Source of the DNA: a virus
Virus record (IMG/VR): IMGVR_UViG_3300019458_000021
Span: 124,001 to 188,000 of that record
Direction: 5' to 3' (one strand)
DNA length: 64,000 bases
This document shows positions 2,382-16,935 of this stretch, in pieces. Both the position numbers and the translations under genes were made by a program. The notes beneath the pieces were generated by a model. The model ran no database searches, was not told the origin of the DNA, and worked only from the letters and a program-made list of their open reading frames with translations. The stretch's first letter is position 1. Each line of letters opens with the position of its first letter.

Positions 2382-3989
2382 ATGACCGAAGGTTGCGTAC
2401 CGATCCTTCCACAAGCATTAGATGAGAACGGCAACCCCGTTGACACAACGCTTTGCCCAGCTCCTTCCGATTGGTCTACGTGTCGTCCTTGGGAATTAAC
2501 GACGCAAAGTCGTACACAATGCTACATTGACAGTTTGACTCAAGAAGCTCTAAACATTGCTGGTGCAGATGTCAATGTGTACAAGCTTCTCGGTGTTCAT
2601 GAACAGACAAAACTAGTCGATTTGACGGGTGACGGGAATCCAATTTCCGGTGGCGACTATGCTTTGTTTCCTGCTTCAAATGCTTTCACGGTTTACTCAT
2701 CTGAGTGGCGTTCTGCACAAATTGGGCAAGCAGTTCTTTCCTCTGCATACATTGGTTATGATTTTGGCATCATCAAGATTTCAACAGGGCGCGCTCGTTA
2801 TGGCATCGACACAAGCATTCGCCAACACATTACCACAATTCGAATCAAGCAAGGCAACAATGCAGCGAACCGGATTGTAAAAGCACGTGTTGAACGATCA
2901 GACACAGGCACGGAGTGGTACGGTGTGGCTGTGATCAATCTGCCGAACAACGACGAGCTTAATACAATCCATTTCAAGCACTCTGTTCCAAGTCGCTTTT
3001 GGCGTCTCCGTCCGCTTGCCTTTGCAGGGGATACTTGCGACTGGTGGACGGTCAAAGCGCTAGAAATGTTTGACTACATGGCAACAGCACAAAACAACAT
3101 TCAGGACAAAGTGTTGATGGAGAACCGTGATCGAGACTACGCAAAATCGTTTGTTAAGCTCAAAGGCTATTACGATCTTGTATCAGTTGCAACAGAGTTG
3201 TCAAAGTTTGGTATCGAGATTCCAACGTCAACCTATCAGATCAAAGTGAACTTCAACTCGACCGTTGCGAAGTTGGGACGACCGATTGTTATTGGTGATA
3301 TCATCGAACTCCCGAGTGAAACACAGTACACTCCTGACTTGCGTCCTGTCAAGCGTTGGTTGGAAGTGACAGATGTATCGTGGGATCCCGGTTCATATAC
3401 ACCAGGTTGGCAACCAACACTGTTGCTCGTAACAACACAGCCAGCAATGGCAACACAAGAGACACAAGACATTTTTGGCGACCTTGCTAAGCAAGTTGAC
3501 AGTTCGGGCCTGTTCAACAACGACGACGGCAACAATCCTGTCTGGCAAGACTACAGCACAGTTGATCAAACGATCCACAACGAAGCGCTAACCGCAGTTG
3601 CGGAACGAGGCCGTGAAGGATCGAATGTAGTTCGCCAGTTCGAACAAGCAGAACTCGACACGGCAACTTCAGAAGGATTTCCGCACCTCAACAAGATTGG
3701 CTTGAATCCAACAGGATTGTACGTCGAAGACGCAATCCCTGCAAATAATGCACCTTATACACAAGGTCCAGACTTTCCTCTTACTCCTGTAAATGGTGAT
3801 TATCACCGACTGGTGTATGAAGGATTAGCAATGGATGTTCCCGCTCGTTTGTACCGTTGGTCGACTGCAAAGGGACGGTGGATTTATGAAGAAACAGACC
3901 GTCGAGCTGAATTCAATGATGAAAAGGCAAGACTGGACGAATACTTAACATCGCCAGCTGCCACCTCAGCAAGGAAGATTGGACAATGA
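2382..3989 (+). CDS. gp14: Neck protein, gp14-like, with a discoidin-like insertion
   Basis: The start is ATG at 2382, 5 bases after GGAG. An in-frame TTG at 2367 lies inside the terminator and is unlikely. The 535-residue protein is much longer than T4 gp14 (256). Residues about 265-390 carry the neck-like part (IGDIIELPSE, then W-x-E-V-T-D). Residues about 95-240 look like an F5/8 type C (discoidin) beta-sandwich: FPASNAF, W-R-S-A-Q-I-G, then RFWRLRPLA and a terminal ALEMFD. Discoidin domains usually bind sugars, so the neck may carry a glycan-binding decoration. The assignment is supported by position directly before gp15, gp18 and gp19. The C-terminal 120 residues are unassigned. Confidence 0.6.
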   Translation: MTEGCVPILPQALDENGNPVDTTLCPAPSDWSTCRPWELTTQSRTQCYIDSLTQEALNIAGADVNVYKLLGVHEQTKLVDLTGDGNPISGGDYALFPASNAFTVYSSEWRSAQIGQAVLSSAYIGYDFGIIKISTGRARYGIDTSIRQHITTIRIKQGNNAANRIVKARVERSDTGTEWYGVAVINLPNNDELNTIHFKHSVPSRFWRLRPLAFAGDTCDWWTVKALEMFDYMATAQNNIQDKVLMENRDRDYAKSFVKLKGYYDLVSVATELSKFGIEIPTSTYQIKVNFNSTVAKLGRPIVIGDIIELPSETQYTPDLRPVKRWLEVTDVSWDPGSYTPGWQPTLLLVTTQPAMATQETQDIFGDLAKQVDSSGLFNNDDGNNPVWQDYSTVDQTIHNEALTAVAERGREGSNVVRQFEQAELDTATSEGFPHLNKIGLNPTGLYVEDAIPANNAPYTQGPDFPLTPVNGDYHRLVYEGLAMDVPARLYRWSTAKGRWIYEETDRRAEFNDEKARLDEYLTSPAATSARKIGQ

Positions 3990-4840
3990 CAAACTACTAT
4001 CAGACAACAGAATCATCTGGACGTCCTGACAAAGCGTACTATTATGATCATCAGTTCCGCAGCTATGTACTGCAATTTATGGCTATCTTTTCAGGTCTGC
4101 AAGTTCGTGTCGGAAAGCGTGCCACAGGGGAAGCTGTTCCAGTAACAGATTGTGAAGGCCAGGTGACAGAGGAACCAATCATCGCGGAAGATCGATTGAT
4201 TAGTGTGCCGATTCACTATGGACACGCTGATCGAGTTGTCGCTGCAATTCTTGCTGAAAACACTCAGAACAAAGTCCTTCGCTTGCCAGTGCTTTCGGCT
4301 TACGTTTCTGGACTGGATTTTCTTACGAACTACCAAGCTGGTATTGGCACAGAGCGCCGACAAGCATACTTACCGACCCAGGGATTGATTCCTGATGATA
4401 TTAAAGTTGTCTACCAACGTCGCGCATTCCCGTTTGAGTTGACGTTCGATCTCAACATTTACGCAAGCAACACAGACCAGCATTTTCAGATCCTTGAACA
4501 GATCTTGATGGTGTTTGACCCAATGCTGCAAATTCAGACGAGTGACGGATTATTTGACATGGGACAAATCACACACGTAGCGCTCACGAGCATGTCTCTC
4601 GACACGAATTATCCAATTGGTACAGATCGTCGAATCATCCAAAGTACCCTAACGTTTAAGATGCCAGTTTACCTGCAATCTCCGGCAGATGTCCGTAAGA
4701 ACTTCATCCAGAAAATTTATGCACGAGTTGGAGCGGTGAGTTCGACGGCTGGTAACAGCTTTGATATCATTGCAGAACTTGACGCGCAGGGCATAAATTA
4801 CGAGCTTTTGATGAGCATTGACGACTTGACCGTCACGTAA
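3986..4840 (+). CDS. gp15: Tail completion / sheath stabilizer protein gp15
   Basis: In T4 this protein forms the hexameric ring capping the completed tail tube and sheath and joins tail to head. Here it has 284 residues (T4: 272). The N-terminal YYYDHQFRSYVLQFMAIFS segment matches the gp15 opening (YFYN..FRRY..LMGDLFS). It is followed by RLISVPIHYG and later VVYQRRAFPFELTFDLNIYA, as in gp15 (IRVPITYA...MIYELSIFTRY). It starts within the stop of the neck gene (ATGA overlap), implying coupled translation, and precedes gp18 as in T4. Confidence 0.85.
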   Translation: MTNYYQTTESSGRPDKAYYYDHQFRSYVLQFMAIFSGLQVRVGKRATGEAVPVTDCEGQVTEEPIIAEDRLISVPIHYGHADRVVAAILAENTQNKVLRLPVLSAYVSGLDFLTNYQAGIGTERRQAYLPTQGLIPDDIKVVYQRRAFPFELTFDLNIYASNTDQHFQILEQILMVFDPMLQIQTSDGLFDMGQITHVALTSMSLDTNYPIGTDRRIIQSTLTFKMPVYLQSPADVRKNFIQKIYARVGAVSSTAGNSFDIIAELDAQGINYELLMSIDDLTVT

Positions 4841-4868
4841 GTTTTTCCACCGTGTCAGGGCACTATTT

Positions 4869-4876
4869 CATAAATA
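4869..4876 (+). promoter_or_regulatory. Late promoter-like CATAAATA
   Basis: One mismatch to the T4 late octamer, in the gap between gp15 and the tail sheath gene, 35 bases before the sheath start. Confidence 0.6.
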
Positions 4877-4910
4877 TCCTCAACAAGCACAGCAGTTTAA
4901 GGAGATTTCT

Positions 4911-7058
4911 ATGGCAACACTCGTTAGCCCAGGCGTAAGCGTAACCATTACGGATGAGAGCTTTTTCATCCCGGCTGCGGCTTTGACAGTTCCACTGCTT
5001 TTCATCGCTACTGCAGATGAAAAGAAACAGCCAGACGGCGTAACGGATGCTCCAGGCACCTTTGAAAGCAACGTTATTCGTACTGTCACATCGCTTCAGC
5101 AGAGCACACAACTCTATGGTATTCCGCGCTTTTTGGAAGATGAACAAGGATTGCCACTCAATGGCGATGCCCGTAACGAATACGGTCTTTTCGCTCTGAA
5201 TCAGTTTCTCGGCATTGGTGACCTCGCATACGTTATTCGTGCAAACGTCAACTTAAACGACAACCTCGATGATCTCCGCACTCTGTGGGATCAGAAAATG
5301 CAAGAAGCAAGTTTTGTTCTCGAGAACATCACTGCACAATTCATTTCTGAATACAACACAGTAAACGGTTACACACCGTCGTCAGGTGCAACATCAGGAT
5401 ATCAAGAAGCAGTTTTCGCTGCAGCAACGATCCTTCCAGCAACTGCTACAGGTCTTGTTGCTTTGACGACATACAGCTTCCAAGCAGTCGTTGATGGTGT
5501 AACATTTAACGGTTCGTTCCTTGGATCTGCTGCGTCAACGTTTGGTACATTGCTGACACAGATCAACACAATTCTTGGTGGTGTAGCTATCGCGTCGTTC
5601 TTCAATGGCGTAACACCTGCTCCAGTTGGCCCAGCAAACAGGATTCGCATTACAAGTGCAACTACTGGTCTGACATCAACAGTTGTGATTGACACAGCGT
5701 TTGTGGGCTTCGGTCCTAACGTATTCCCAGCATTGGTTGGTCCACCAGCATTCGTTACTTTGGGTCCGCAGGTGCGTGGTGACACACTGTTCAAGTACAC
5801 GGTAACTTCTGCAGAACTGCTTTCGTTGACAGAACAAGCAACAGCGTTCATCTGGGAAATGTTCTCGTTCAGCCGCGGTGTTCCGCCGCTGCATGACGAC
5901 TTCATGGATAACCACACATCGAGCCCACTTCCAGTGTTTCCGAACGGCTACGATCAGCCGCCTGTTCCGCCTGGTTATCTTGGTTTCCAAGGTATTGAAG
6001 CCGCTTGGGTTGCAGGTAATTTGGGATCGACGCCTGGTCGTGAAGACGAATGGACACCAACAGAAGCATCGAACACATTACTTGGTGCGGCAGATGATTT
6101 CAAATTCACGACTGAATTCTTGAACAAGACCGCGCTTGGCGCTAACGATGCAGCCCGTCGCGTTGCAATTGTGACCGCTCTGCAAGCATCGATCAACAGC
6201 AACACAGACATTCGTGGTGAAACATTCGAGTACAACCTGATCCTCTGCCCAGGTTACTGGGAAACCGTTGATGAGTTGAACAACCTCGTCATCGACATTC
6301 AAGAAGAGGCTATGGTTATTGCTGACACACCATTCAGTATGGATCCAGATCAAGTCGTAGCATGGGCTGCGACAACCGGTCGCACGCAAACACGTGATGT
6401 AGCATACTATTACCCACATGGCCTTGCATCGAACCTTGACGGCAAGAACGTATTCATTGCTGCTTCTGGTACAGCTCTTCGCACGATTGTGTTCAGCGAT
6501 GAAACAGCTGAGATCTGGTTTGCTCCAGCAGGTACTCGTCGTGGTCAGGTTTCCGGTGTAACAGATGTTGGTTACGTAACCGGCACACTTGGCACACCAA
6601 CAACATTCACACCAGTGGCTCTTAACCAGGGACAGCGTGATAACCTGTACAAGTACTTCACCAACGTCAACCCGATCGTGTTCTTCCCAGGCCGAGGCAT
6701 TCTAGTGTGGGGTCAGAAAACATCGGCACCAGATGCAAGCGCACTCGACCGTATCAATGTCATGCGTCTTGTCATGTATATCAAGCGTCAGCTTCGTAAG
6801 AACACAATGAGCTTCGTGTTCGAACCGAACGACCAACTGACCCGTGACAACTTAAAGGCAATGGTTGATGCATTCCTTGGTGATCTGATCGTCAAGCGTG
6901 GTCTGTTCGACTTCGCTACGGTTTGCGATGAAAGCAACAACACTCCAGATCGTATCGATAGAAACGAGATGTACATCGACGTAGCATTGAAGCCGGTGCG
7001 TGCAGCCGAATTCATCTACATCCCACTACGTATCGTTTCCACGGGAGCTCAGATCTAA
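4911..7058 (+). CDS. gp18: Tail sheath protein gp18
   Basis: The contractile sheath subunit, 715 residues (T4: 659). The N-terminus VSPGVSVTITDES is typical of sheath proteins. The C-terminal third carries the conserved core: FFPGRGILVWGQKT, then INVMRLVMYIKRQLRK, then FEPND and ending with PLRIVSTGAQI. Residues about 175-275 are an insertion with the same beta-module that is tripled in the gene at 523 and appears in the fibre gene at 36661; it probably projects from the sheath surface. An AAGGAGA ribosome site and a late-promoter motif precede it. Confidence 0.95.
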   Translation: MATLVSPGVSVTITDESFFIPAAALTVPLLFIATADEKKQPDGVTDAPGTFESNVIRTVTSLQQSTQLYGIPRFLEDEQGLPLNGDARNEYGLFALNQFLGIGDLAYVIRANVNLNDNLDDLRTLWDQKMQEASFVLENITAQFISEYNTVNGYTPSSGATSGYQEAVFAAATILPATATGLVALTTYSFQAVVDGVTFNGSFLGSAASTFGTLLTQINTILGGVAIASFFNGVTPAPVGPANRIRITSATTGLTSTVVIDTAFVGFGPNVFPALVGPPAFVTLGPQVRGDTLFKYTVTSAELLSLTEQATAFIWEMFSFSRGVPPLHDDFMDNHTSSPLPVFPNGYDQPPVPPGYLGFQGIEAAWVAGNLGSTPGREDEWTPTEASNTLLGAADDFKFTTEFLNKTALGANDAARRVAIVTALQASINSNTDIRGETFEYNLILCPGYWETVDELNNLVIDIQEEAMVIADTPFSMDPDQVVAWAATTGRTQTRDVAYYYPHGLASNLDGKNVFIAASGTALRTIVFSDETAEIWFAPAGTRRGQVSGVTDVGYVTGTLGTPTTFTPVALNQGQRDNLYKYFTNVNPIVFFPGRGILVWGQKTSAPDASALDRINVMRLVMYIKRQLRKNTMSFVFEPNDQLTRDNLKAMVDAFLGDLIVKRGLFDFATVCDESNNTPDRIDRNEMYIDVALKPVRAAEFIYIPLRIVSTGAQI

Positions 7059-7731: not shown

Positions 7732-7739
7732 GATAAATA
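7732..7739 (+). promoter_or_regulatory. Late promoter-like GATAAATA
   Basis: Directly after the terminator and 19 bases before the next start codon, the expected position for restarting late transcription. Confidence 0.6.
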
Positions 7740-12587: not shown

Positions 12588-14183
12588 ATGAGCCGCAAGA
12601 ACGAATACATCAAGCGCAGTAACGCTACAACCGTAGAAGAGTTTACTGCAGATCAAGTTGTCGAATATACGAAGTGCATGGATGACCCTGTGTACTTCAT
12701 CCTGAATTACTGTCGTCTGCAACATCCTGTGAAAGGCGACATCGCATTTGCAATGTACCCGTATCAGAAACGTGTTGTTACAACGTTTTTCCATAACCGC
12801 CTTGTAATCGTCCTAGCAGCTCGTCAAACAGGCAAGTCATGGACTGTAGGTGCATACATGTTGTGGTATGCGATGTTCAAGAAAGACAAGACATGTATCA
12901 TTGCGTCGAACAAAGAAGAAAACGCAATGGAAATGATCCACCGTATCCGGTTCATGTACGAGCGTATTCCAAACTGGTTGAAAGCAGGCGTGACCGACGA
13001 CGGTTACAACAAGCACCGATTCTCGTTTGATAATGGATCTCGTATTCTTGCAGAGACGACAAGTGAAAACACAGGCCGTGGTAAAGGTGCTTCGTTGCTG
13101 TTTTTGGACGAATTTGCGCACGTTCGCGAAAACATTCAGGAAGAGTTTTGGACATCTACGGCACCAACATTCTCGACGGGTGGTGATTGTATTATCTGTT
13201 CAACGCCAAACGGTGACACAAACCGTTTCGCGCAGCTGTGGCGTGCGGCGGAATTGTACCAATCTGAAATCGTTCACGTTCAAGACGAACCGAAAGCCGA
13301 AAACGACATCTCTGGTGCGGATTTCATCCCGATTGAAGTAAAATGGAATGAAGCGCCCGGTCGCGATGAACGATTCAAGCAGAGCGAAATTCGTAAGATC
13401 GGTGAAGTAAAATGGCGACAAGAATACGAGTGTCAGTTTCTGTCGTCAGATCCTGTTCTTATTGATCCAGTCGTTGTTGCTCGTCTTTGGAAGGAAACGG
13501 AAAAGACGAAACCTGTTGCGGTGATTCAGGACATCGTATTCTTTGAGCTGCCAAAACCTAACGCCGTGTATCTTGTTGGTGTTGATCCTGCGACAGGGTC
13601 TGGACGTGACTACACAGCGTTCAATGTCTTCTCCCATCCAAGCATGGTACAGGTTGCTGAGTATCGCTCGAATACCATGTCAAGTGTGACAGCGTACCAA
13701 TCTTTGAAACAATTGCTCCGCGTGTACGAAAAAGCTCAATCGACTGTGTTCTTCTCGATCGAAAATAATGGTGTGGGTGAAGCAATGATTTCATTGTACG
13801 AAGCGGATGAAGCACCACCGGATACAGCCGAATTCATCAGCGAGACCGGACAAAAACGTCGTGGAATGACGACCACCGGCAAAGCAAAAATCAAAGCGTG
13901 TTTGGCACTAAAGGAAATGGTTGAACGAAACACAATCAAGCTTCACTCACCAACCCTTATTGCAGAGATGAAGAACTTCGTTAGGAAGGCGGGCTCGTAC
14001 AGTGCAAAATCAAGTTCGACAGATGATTTGATTTCTGGCTGCCTTATTGCTCTTCGTGTTCTACAAGAGATCTCGTCATTTGACCAAGACGCTTACGAAA
14101 AGCTGTACAATCCAGCGTACTATGAAATTGGTCCAGCAGAAGAATACGACGAGTCGTACGAACCAGACCCTGTTGTCATTTAA
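12588..14183 (+). CDS. gp17: Large terminase subunit gp17
   Basis: The packaging ATPase/nuclease motor, 531 residues (T4: 610). The ATPase has Walker A ARQTGKS at about 78-84, Walker [11 protein letters not shown] at about 170-179, and the coupling motif ICSTPNGD near residue 205. The nuclease domain begins with the catalytic-Asp strand [16 protein letters not shown] near residue 330, with [14 protein letters not shown] and ending [17 protein letters not shown]. The C-terminus is acidic. A diverged, internally deleted copy of the nuclease part follows at about 14243-14669. Confidence 0.95.
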
Positions 14184-14197
14184 CCCTGTTTCATATT

Positions 14198-14221
14198 AGA
14201 ATCCGGTAAATACTGGATTCT
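14198..14221 (+). repeat. Inverted repeat downstream of gp17
   Basis: A 9-bp imperfect stem (AGAATCCGG / CTGGATTCT, one G-T pair) with a TAAATA loop. No T-run follows, so it is not a standard terminator. It lies at the junction between the intact terminase gene and the truncated terminase copy. Confidence 0.45.
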
Positions 14222-14242
14222 GAACATGAACGCACCAACTCT

Positions 14243-14669
14243 TTTCATGCCAATTGCACCTTATCATCAGACCCACTTTTGATTGACACTCTTGCGTTAG
14301 AGAGCCTTACAACAGAACTTAGAGGCATTACTCACATTGGTACGTTTGATGAATTTAAGTTTTATAAACAACCAACAACTGGCTCCACACTTTTAGTTGG
14401 CGTTGATCCAGCAACGGGCAATGGAGAGGACTATACAGCAATTGAAGTGTATGAGTTTCCTTCGTTAGAACAAGTGGCAGAATTTCGTTCAAACACAACA
14501 TCGTCTGTGACAGCATATCAGAAACTGAAAAAGCTTCTAAAAGTTTTAGAGAAAGCTTTCGTTTGACCAGGATGCATACGACAAGTTATTTGTTCATGCT
14601 TATAATGATGTGGATGTTAGCGAGGAGTATGATGAGAACGACGTTCCTCTACCGATTTCGTTTAGTTGA
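14243..14669 (+). pseudogene. Diverged, internally deleted copy of the gp17 nuclease domain
   Basis: The frame from 14279 to 14566 reads LIDTLALE..., then [23 protein letters not shown], then VAEFRSNTTSSVTAYQKLKKLL, which follows gp17 ([16 protein letters not shown]...[22 protein letters not shown]) closely but is clearly diverged. Upstream, SSDPLLID matches gp17 SSDPVLID. After the EKA codons the frame breaks and the sequence resumes as SFDQDAYDKLF...EEYDEND, matching the gp17 C-terminus [11 protein letters not shown]...EEYDES. Roughly 110 residues between these points are deleted. It appears to be the C-terminal part of a second, related terminase gene, left as a remnant. Confidence 0.85.
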
Positions 14670-14706
14670 CCTTACTCTTAATAGAATAATGCGGTTGTTT
14701 TCCCCA

Positions 14707-14714
14707 CATAAATA
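14707..14714 (+). promoter_or_regulatory. Late promoter-like CATAAATA
   Basis: 39 bases upstream of the HNH endonuclease start, inside the apparently imported block. Confidence 0.5.
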
Positions 14715-14752
14715 CATATTCAGGGAAAAGTAAATAAGCTATAAGGAACAAT

Positions 14753-15292
14753 ATGGCATACACGGAAAAACAACGTGAATACAACCGTAGATGGCGGCAA
14801 AAGGATCCCAAACGCTGGCAACGGCACCTTGCGCAAGTGAAACAATGGCGTAAGGAAAACAGAGCGAAATGGCTTGAAACACACCGAGCAACGAGGTCCC
14901 GTCCCGAATACAAGGAGCGAGAGAAAAAACGAGCAATAGAAGCCCGTCGCAACAACCCTCTTAAATATGTTGCACAAGGTCTTCAACAGAGAGCAAGAAA
15001 GCTGGGCCTTGAGTGTAACGTTAACACGCAATATCTCAAATCTATATGGACTGACCAATGTCCAATTCTGAACGTGCCGTTGTTTGCTGGTGTAAAAAGA
15101 GGGACAATACCAGAACTGAACCTTGCAAGTGTTGATCGTCTTGACAACACAAAAGGATATATAAAGGGCAACGTTCACTTTATTTCTTACAGAGTGAACA
15201 ATATAAAATCTGATGCGTCGTTTGAAGAAATCGAACGGCTGTACAACTGGTGGAAAGCAAACAAAGCGAATGAAAGTCAACCAACTACTTGA
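14753..15292 (+). CDS. HNH-type homing endonuclease
   Basis: A 179-residue basic protein. Residues 1-70 are a Lys/Arg-rich helical DNA-contact region. The C-terminal half has CPILNVPLF, then ASVDRLDNTKGYIKGNVHFIS, and then the helix NIKSDASFEEIERLYNWW. This is the phage HNH family in which (S/V)DRLDN..GY..GNV.(W)IS replaces a classical HNH signature. It sits between the terminase remnant and a kinase gene. A decayed relative is at 46961-47360. Confidence 0.75.
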   Translation: MAYTEKQREYNRRWRQKDPKRWQRHLAQVKQWRKENRAKWLETHRATRSRPEYKEREKKRAIEARRNNPLKYVAQGLQQRARKLGLECNVNTQYLKSIWTDQCPILNVPLFAGVKRGTIPELNLASVDRLDNTKGYIKGNVHFISYRVNNIKSDASFEEIERLYNWWKANKANESQPTT

Positions 15293-15767
15293 GAACGCTC
15301 AATCAACTTTATTTGTTCCAATTAGTCCGTCAGGCGGAGGCAAATCTACTCTCTATCAAAAACTAAAAACACAAAATCCCGATCTTCTCGTTTTTTCGCT
15401 GGATATACTGCGTCATGAATTTTACGACCCTAGTGATTACGCCGCCGCTTGGAGGGCATCAAATGAAGATCCACAGTTCAAACAAAGAGCAAATGATCGT
15501 TTCCTTGAATTAATTAAAACGGGAAAAGATATCTATGTGGATAATACATCTTTGACACCTAAACGCCGCCGATTTTACCTTAATGCAGCTCGTCAACACG
15601 GTTACAAAACTATAGCCTATGTCTTTGATGTTGACCTGCCAACATTAATTGCCAGACAAAAAACCAGATCAGATAAAAGTGTGCCTGAAGAAGCCGTTCG
15701 CCAACAGTATAAGTCGTTAGTTGGTCCACAAGCGGGCGAATTTGATCAGGTTGTTAATGTAAAATAA
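15270..15767 (+). CDS. P-loop kinase (polynucleotide-kinase-like, AAA_33 type), intact copy
   Basis: The start is taken as ATG 15270, which overlaps the HNH gene by 23 bases and gives a 165-residue protein with the P-loop (SPSGGGKST) near residues 19-27 as expected. Further motifs: LLVFSLDILRHEFY, IYVDNTSLTPKRRR, and a lid-like ARQKTRSDKSVPEEAVRQQY. These fit the small P-loop kinases that phosphorylate polynucleotide 5' ends or nucleosides; the substrate is not visible. A second, N-terminally truncated and diverged copy lies at 16038-16385, beyond the GIY-YIG gene. Confidence 0.7.
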   Translation: MKVNQLLENAQSTLFVPISPSGGGKSTLYQKLKTQNPDLLVFSLDILRHEFYDPSDYAAAWRASNEDPQFKQRANDRFLELIKTGKDIYVDNTSLTPKRRRFYLNAARQHGYKTIAYVFDVDLPTLIARQKTRSDKSVPEEAVRQQYKSLVGPQAGEFDQVVNVK

Positions 15768-16084
15768 TGAATACTTACTTAATTTACAAACACACGTCTC
15801 CCTCTGGAAAAAGTTATATAGGACAAACGGGGGCGTTCAAAAGGAGAACACAGGAACATTTATCGTCAAAGTCTTGTTGCCGAGCCTTTCTGAAAGCTAT
15901 ACAAAAATATGGCTGGGAGTCCTTTACGCATGAAATTTTAGCGCAAGAGCTGACATTAGATGAAGCCAACCGGTTGGAGAAAAAGTATATCGTTGAACAC
16001 AACACCCTTGTCCCAAACGGATATAACCTGACGTCTGGTGGAAGCAATTATCAATTATGCTCGTGCTTGGAAGATGTCGACTGA
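15767..16084 (+). CDS. GIY-YIG homing endonuclease
   Basis: A 105-residue protein starting in the kinase stop codon (TAATG). It has a complete GIY-YIG core: YLIYKHTSPSGKSYIGQTG, the catalytic Arg in FKRRTQEH, then AIQKYGWESFTHEIL and the Glu-bearing helix EANRLEKKYIVEHNT..PNGYNLTSGG. The last ~15 residues (NYQLCSCLEDVD) are read out of frame from the truncated kinase copy, so the original C-terminus, probably a DNA-binding region, was lost at the junction near 16045. Confidence 0.8.
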   Translation: MNTYLIYKHTSPSGKSYIGQTGAFKRRTQEHLSSKSCCRAFLKAIQKYGWESFTHEILAQELTLDEANRLEKKYIVEHNTLVPNGYNLTSGGSNYQLCSCLEDVD

Positions 16085-16385
16085 AGACTCGCAGTTTGGC
16101 AAGAAGGCGAACGATGAGTATTTGCGCTTGTTAGATGAAGGTATCGATCTGTACGTTGACAACATGAACCTTTCACCAAAGAAACGGAAGTGGTTCTTGG
16201 AACAAGCAAAGAAGCGTGGTTACAAAACGGTGGCGGTAGTGTTTCCGAACGTAACACTGGATGTGCTGTTGGCTCGCCAAAAGACGCGAGGCGACAAGAA
16301 TGTACCAGAAGCTGCTGTTCGTCAGCAGTGGATGGCTTTGAAAGGACCTGAACGCGGTGAATTCGACACAATCATTAGCGCTTAA
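16038..16385 (+). pseudogene. N-terminally truncated second kinase copy
   Basis: The reading frame INYARAWKMSTEDSQF, then IDLYVDNMNLSPKKRKWF, then ARQKTRGDKNVPEAAVRQQW, then GPERGEFDTII parallels residues about 55-160 of the kinase at 15270 throughout, at clearly reduced identity. The P-loop half is missing; upstream the sequence is GIY-YIG. An internal ATG at 16074 could still express a fragment but no useful enzyme. Codon usage here resembles the flanking structural genes more than the upstream copy does, suggesting this is the resident gene and the upstream copy is the newcomer. Confidence 0.8.
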
Positions 16386-16935
16386 GCTGATCCGAGGTTG
16401 CCGTATTCTCGATCAGCTTAAGCTACTAGCTGAAGACAGCACATATCCGGAGTTGTACACCGATATCCAGCGCGGATTTCCGAACACACAACGACGTCAG
16501 CATGCGACAAATGAAGTGTCGATTCGGCAGCTGTCATATCTGCCGTATATTGGAATGAAAATGCTGCAGATTCGTGCTCAATGTCGTAGCAATCAACATG
16601 ACTATCAACCGATTCTTCAATTGTTGAACGTCACGTTCGAAAACGCTGACTCTCCAGAGAACGTCACATTCAACGCACAGGGCACAGATTATCACATGCA
16701 GCCTGTTGACCTTGATCAAAGTCGGGTGAAAGTTCGCTGCAACTGTCTTGACTTCTACTACCGATTTGCAATGACGAATTTTAACGACAACAGTCTTGTT
16801 GGTCGTTCACCACCAGTGTACCGTCGGGTGCCAGGATCGAACCGACCACCAGCAAATCCGATGAACGTTCCTGGGCTTTGCCGCCATTTAATCAAGGTTG
16901 TTCAGCGGTTGCAACAGTTAGGATTCGTTCGATAG
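16357..16935 (+). CDS. Unknown protein with SWIM-like CxC...CxH zinc motif
   Basis: A 192-residue frame with a likely GTG start at 16357 that overlaps the truncated kinase; the start is uncertain. Residues 128 and 130 (RCNCLDFYYRF) and 175 and 177 (GLCRHLIKVV) form a C-x-C...C-x-H arrangement typical of SWIM zinc fingers, preceded by a beta-rich half. The loop between carries VYRRVPGSNRPPANPMNVP. SWIM domains mediate DNA or protein contacts, but the role here is unknown. Confidence 0.55.
   Translation: MNSTQSLALKLIRGCRILDQLKLLAEDSTYPELYTDIQRGFPNTQRRQHATNEVSIRQLSYLPYIGMKMLQIRAQCRSNQHDYQPILQLLNVTFENADSPENVTFNAQGTDYHMQPVDLDQSRVKVRCNCLDFYYRFAMTNFNDNSLVGRSPPVYRRVPGSNRPPANPMNVPGLCRHLIKVVQRLQQLGFVR

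Follow-up and report, generated by a model that had tools for sequence, protein, structure and literature searches.

Co-conversion is the replacement, via homologous exchange, of the sequences that flank a mobile gene during homing. In phage T4, in which intronless homing involves SegF, SegG and MobE, free-standing endonucleases cleave at a distance of hundreds to thousands of bases from the gene that encodes them, and intron homing with limited homology was shown to yield illegitimate joints at microhomology, accompanied by extensive degradation (PMC2988022). Furthermore, nuclease genes are situated at the boundaries of phage exchange, often near terminase genes (PMC10448857). Here we describe a locus in a 237-kb phage record, located in the 64-kb stretch that was analysed (the window), at which a foreign segment carrying two endonuclease genes interrupts the resident kinase gene, in what is well supported as a natural illegitimate insertion of a segment from one phage into another.

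Gene order and joints of the block

The locus consists of, in order, gp17, a gp17 remnant, an HNH-like ORF, an intact kinase gene (kinA), a GIY-YIG ORF, a kinase remnant (kinB) and p192. The resident gp17 (large terminase; 12588–14183, + strand) is intact and intein-free, encodes 531 aa and matches Pfam Terminase_6N and 6C, while p192 (16357–16935, + strand), the conserved next resident gene, overlaps the 3′ end of kinB and follows the kinase in most relatives. A sequence-only reading of this DNA had reported that gp17 and the kinase are each present twice around the endonuclease genes, which was confirmed by the ORFs, by tblastn (4e-21 between the two copies of gp17, 7e-38 between those of the kinase; far above chance similarity) and by a second contig, L002. 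That reading had missed two details, namely a kinase 5′ end upstream of the gp17 remnant and the lack of the C-terminal half of the GIY-YIG ORF.

Downstream of the resident gp17 stop codon, both the resident spacer (CCCTGTTTCAT...GTAAATACT) and the beginning of the kinase gene have been preserved, as a DNA alignment with L003 showed. Preserved with them is a TAAATAC element in the resident kinase promoter region (14207–14213, + strand), which aligns with its L003 counterpart. Of the resident kinase, codons 1–12 are retained at 14226–14261 (+ strand); the encoded sequence, MNAPTLFMPIAP, ends at the P-loop, aligns with the kinase starts of L003 and L006 and is equivalent to TLYMPIAP/SGAGKST in L006 and TLFIPIGT/SGAGKTT in L003 (the slash marking the equivalent end point). 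At the left joint (14259–14263), resident GCACC(T) meets donor gp17 TTATCATCAGAC with an ambiguity of 1–3 nt, the base after 14261 being that of donor gp17 (LSSDPLLIDTLALE), as in L192; donor gp17 codon ~283 is thereby fused to resident kinase codon 12. Since a kinase 5′ end lies upstream of the gp17 remnant, the block interrupts the kinase gene at its P-loop, and not, as the sequence-only reading had it, the gap between gp17 and the kinase.

The right joint (16045–16058) lies inside a tandem CAATTAT-CAATTAT and fuses codon ~97 of the donor GIY-YIG gene to codon ~48 of the resident kinase, with the resident kinase restarting at NYARAW. Measured against both L003 and L006, 35 codons (~105 bp) are missing from the resident kinase, and this lost interval held the P-loop and the SxDxLRH motif, both of which are conserved in the family. 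The 3′ remnant kinB (~16053–16385, + strand) is devoid of both motifs and matches AAA_33 at positions 65–140 only. The presence of kinase pieces on both sides of the block bears out the earlier proposal that the arrival of the segment broke the resident kinase, although the loss is confined to these ~35 codons and does not amount to replacement of the first half of the gene. Neither joint is homologous: any microhomology would be limited to 1–3 nt on the left and to the tandem CAATTAT on the right, with the donor sequence deduced from relatives. Searches at the joints for a group I intron or other known RNA gave no Rfam match that counts.

The gp17 remnant (14261–14672, + strand) spans two frames, in which nuclease-domain codons ~283–383 are joined to codon 497 through to the end, and its coverage of gp17 (residues ~283–383 and 497–529) is 52–55% identical to the resident protein. 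Approximately 113 residues (384–496) are deleted, out of frame, between EKA(383) and SFDQD(497) at ~14562; of the three catalytic acids expected, two would presumably lie in the deleted part, and the remnant is probably nuclease-dead. The donor gp17 stop codon and a TAAATACAT spacer survive upstream of the HNH-like gene, and the spacer between the remnant stop and this gene carries ATAAATACAT, as do the gp17–kinase spacers of L192 and L193, which also match its TAAATAC (14709–14715, + strand). This heptamer occurs nine times on the + strand of the window (e.g. at 7734, 14207, 14709, 19923 and 36629) and not at all on the – strand, and looks like a late-promoter-type element. Several of the copies are situated directly ahead of genes.

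The intact donor kinase, kinA (15270–15767, + strand), is a T4 Pnk-like P-loop kinase of 165 aa (Pfam AAA_33, 1.2e-16), which matches the PDB structure of T4 polynucleotide kinase 1ly1 at 1e-8. It shares the P-loop and SxDxLRH motif with the N-terminal kinase domain of the T4 enzyme (1ly1, 1ltq), yet differs from the latter in being a single-domain protein with remote identity. All invariant columns of alignment A1, including both motifs, are retained in kinA, which exhibits 54% aa identity to kinB and has probably taken over the kinase function from the destroyed resident gene.

The GIY-YIG catalytic domain ORF (15767–16084, + strand) scores 63.1 bits against TIGR01453 (cut-off 56.05) and also matches Pfam PF01541, though it spans only positions 4–92 of the 215 of TIGR01453, the C-terminal DNA-binding region being absent. 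The final ~8 codons derive from the resident kinase, read in another frame, and in every one of the 77 relatives whose stop is visible the ORF continues for at least 87 more codons, which together place the donor breakpoint inside the GIY-YIG gene; the GIY-YIG relatives of L112 and L113 contain NUMOD3 repeats. The truncated product is probably no longer a site-specific homing enzyme.

Lineages, composition and age of the duplicated genes

Phylogenetic analysis placed the gp17 remnant with L192 and L193 (support 100/98) and the resident gp17 with L003 (99/92), and forcing the two gp17 copies of the window together cost 58 log units (AU p=6e-5). Likewise, kinB grouped with the L003 kinase (100/99), and a tree joining kinA and kinB was rejected (AU p=2e-8); kinA was placed beside L192 with weak support (61/41), a position compatible with the AU test (p=0.37). 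The trees and AU tests thus assign the copies to separate lineages and uphold the earlier suggestion that the segment, comprising the gp17 3′ end, HNH-like gene, kinase and GIY-YIG gene, is foreign, its gp17 and kinase copies not being recent within-genome duplicates. A tandem duplication in this genome followed by divergence would explain why gp17 and kinase sequences each occur twice, in order, but it is contradicted by both AU tests and by ~30 relatives that are single-copy, and its probability is negligible. Single copies in the relatives also indicate that possession of both copies is not the ancestral arrangement, and no remnant pair like that of the window was found among some thirty relatives. 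An assembly chimera of two phages has to be considered for a source record that is a metagenomic virus contig; however, L002, which is near-identical to but distinct from the window (seven substitutions and one 2-nt indel over 10 kb, with four of the seven substitutions and the indel inside the block), displays the same arrangement with identical joints, which argues against an artefact and makes a chimera highly improbable.

Base composition, which the sequence-only reading had suggested comparing between the block and its flanks, was consistent with a foreign origin. The GC content of the block is 0.410, compared with 0.463±0.020 for equal-length stretches in the 64-kb window, of which 0.8% are equally low, and GC3 is 0.29 in kinA and the gp17 remnant versus 0.52 in kinB. 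Codon-use scores of the short block genes, calculated within the same 64-kb window, were suggestive, not decisive. Comparison of kinB with L003 yielded a dN of 0.17 with near-saturated dS, as in neighbouring genes, and the gp17 remnant showed the same dN/dS signature against L193. Neither remnant has gained stop codons except at the joints and the deletion. The retained signature of selection and the lack of added stops suggest that the event was recent relative to the split from L003.

The gp17–kinase boundary and its endonucleases in relatives

In approximately ten distinct relatives (L003, L004, L005, L006, L028, L192, L193, L194, L269 and L312), gp17 is directly followed by one kinase gene; L003 represents the empty resident allele, and L192 and L193 represent empty donor-type alleles. 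The inserts observed between gp17 and the kinase in L007, L010, L029, L030, L240 and L281 mostly contain unknown genes or no clear ORF and do not correspond to this block. None of the contigs showed the donor order in full, with GIY-YIG included, and a search of 84,980 cellular genomes revealed no relatives.

The second gene of the block encodes a full-length, free-standing HNH/Endo VII-like endonuclease of 179 aa (14753–15292, + strand). It matches the endonuclease families phrog_3322 (5.9e-27), phrog_1035 (1.9e-10) and phrog_3118 (1e-7), and the name HNH follows these PHROG assignments and the annotation of relatives. No Pfam model matched, and a profile of 38 relatives matched restriction enzyme PacI weakly (E 0.017). 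The AlphaFold2 model was confident (pLDDT 91) and had no fold match in the PDB. Other HNH-like relatives are present in the same phage genome (G000:C1:191790, 197483, 171043–171322 and 232662).

The donor-type order, gp17–HNH–kinase, is found in L282 (and also in L260), whose HNH-like protein is 45% identical to that of the block and is its closest relative by a wide margin (8e-43 for L282 vs 6e-19). In L282 and the block alike, the HNH 3′ end runs across the kinase ATG (WWKA..NE). The gp17 of L282 groups with those of L028 and L240, both of which are without the HNH-like gene, and the site is occupied in L282 and the block and empty in L003, L004, L005, L006, L028, L192 and L193; this distribution is the one expected of a site-faithful mobile endonuclease.

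Further insertions were noted in and around gp17 of the relatives. L278 has another type of endonuclease-like gene (DUF7487, 513 aa; 3769–5310) separating gp17 from the kinase, which indicates that nucleases of unrelated families have entered at this boundary. An intein-like insert is present at the Walker A site of gp17 (RQTGK/S) in L003 (2894–5581), L006, L009, L010, L013 and L267, but not in the gp17 of the window; the L003 gp17 is one 895-aa ORF including the insert, which is similar to DnaB and other intein-containing proteins. In L194 (3265–6729) and L013 (7545–8020), gp17 is divided at YE/C (residue ~281) by an apparent split intein; the halves of the fractured gene are separated by a 510-aa DUF7487 endonuclease-like ORF in L194, and those in L013 are joined by a stop/start overlap, TATGCTAA. 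At first sight, the coordinates of this split site coincided with the left end of the gp17 remnant; a link between the two was considered and rejected, because the start of the resident kinase accounts for TGCCAATT at the joint. An additional, diverged sequence resembling terminase (approximately the ATPase region, residues about 15–282) was observed just upstream of gp17 in L302 (43–771), L321, L270, L271, L273, L274, L314 and L012.

Origin of the block and comparison with known systems

We consider it fairly likely that the donor segment was captured by illegitimate repair of a break in the resident kinase gene. The donor would have been a related phage infecting the same cell, with a gp17 of the L192/L193 lineage, and its segment of ~1.8 kb (originally ~2.1 kb) would have extended from the gp17 nuclease domain, through the HNH-like gene and the full kinase gene, into the GIY-YIG gene. 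This segment would have been captured in a break or gap within the resident kinase, with limited resection (~105 bp lost), and both ends would have been joined non-homologously, with at most some short microhomology to assist. The two non-homologous joints are no more than ~105 bp apart in the recipient, which is most simply explained if a fragment was captured in one break; from this we infer a single event with a double-strand break as the trigger. A further step may have been required for the deletion inside the gp17 remnant. Accompanied by the donor promoter element, kinA would replace the destroyed resident kinase, leaving the gp17 remnant and GIY-YIG fragment as passenger debris. On circumstantial grounds, the HNH-like enzyme or a full-length GIY-YIG enzyme may have made the break, and the HNH-like enzyme could plausibly have cut near the start of the kinase gene.

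The same illegitimate insertion could have occurred during co-infection with the endonucleases as mere passengers, a possible though less favoured explanation that accommodates joints which are non-homologous and inside genes, as well as the truncated GIY-YIG gene. It leaves aside that, in two lineages, the HNH-like gene occupies a site just upstream of the 105 bp that were lost, and that nuclease genes are reported to mark phage exchange boundaries (PMC10448857). The sequence-only reading had instead viewed the block as a captured stage of homing with co-conversion, and ordinary intronless homing would fit the presence of a free-standing endonuclease, together with foreign flanks, at a position unoccupied in close relatives. 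Homologous exchange, however, would replace the resident gp17 end and kinase and not leave both copies, whereas here gp17 is fused on the left to the kinase, with which it shares no homology, and GIY-YIG to the kinase on the right, so that both joints are illegitimate and the flanking genes are duplicated; such homing is therefore very unlikely. It is also doubtful, if conceivable, that HNH–kinase–GIY-YIG constitutes a composite mobile unit, its cargo kinase being framed by two endonucleases that move it from phage to phage and insert it ectopically into resident kinase genes, replacing their function even below the homology of normal homing.

Illegitimate capture at a break would make this locus of a large phage a rare record, formed in nature, of how genes pass imprecisely from one phage to another. 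It would also imply that a phage gene can be displaced by a counterpart of 54% identity, too diverged for easy homologous exchange, and the 105-bp interval is where a nuclease cut site should be sought. The event can be dissected, as the recipient and donor-type alleles are available in the empty state, together with a relative that has the HNH-like gene at this site. In a limited literature search, no report was found of a natural illegitimate-repair product in which both breakpoints are readable.

The block resembles T4 intronless homing by SegF, SegG and MobE (PMC2988022) in that free-standing GIY-YIG/HNH-type genes adjoin conserved genes, the site is empty in relatives and flanking DNA has moved along. 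It differs in that the flanks are duplicated and not replaced, and in its non-homologous joints. Illegitimate double-strand-break repair in T4 (PMC2988022) similarly entails loss of recipient DNA at the break and produces microhomology-level joints, which the block may share; that system is experimental and concerns an intron, whereas the present block is natural, involves a free-standing nuclease with a cargo gene and is illegitimate on both sides. As at the exchange boundaries described previously (PMC10448857), endonuclease genes are located near the terminase gene, but here the actual breakpoints are preserved inside genes.
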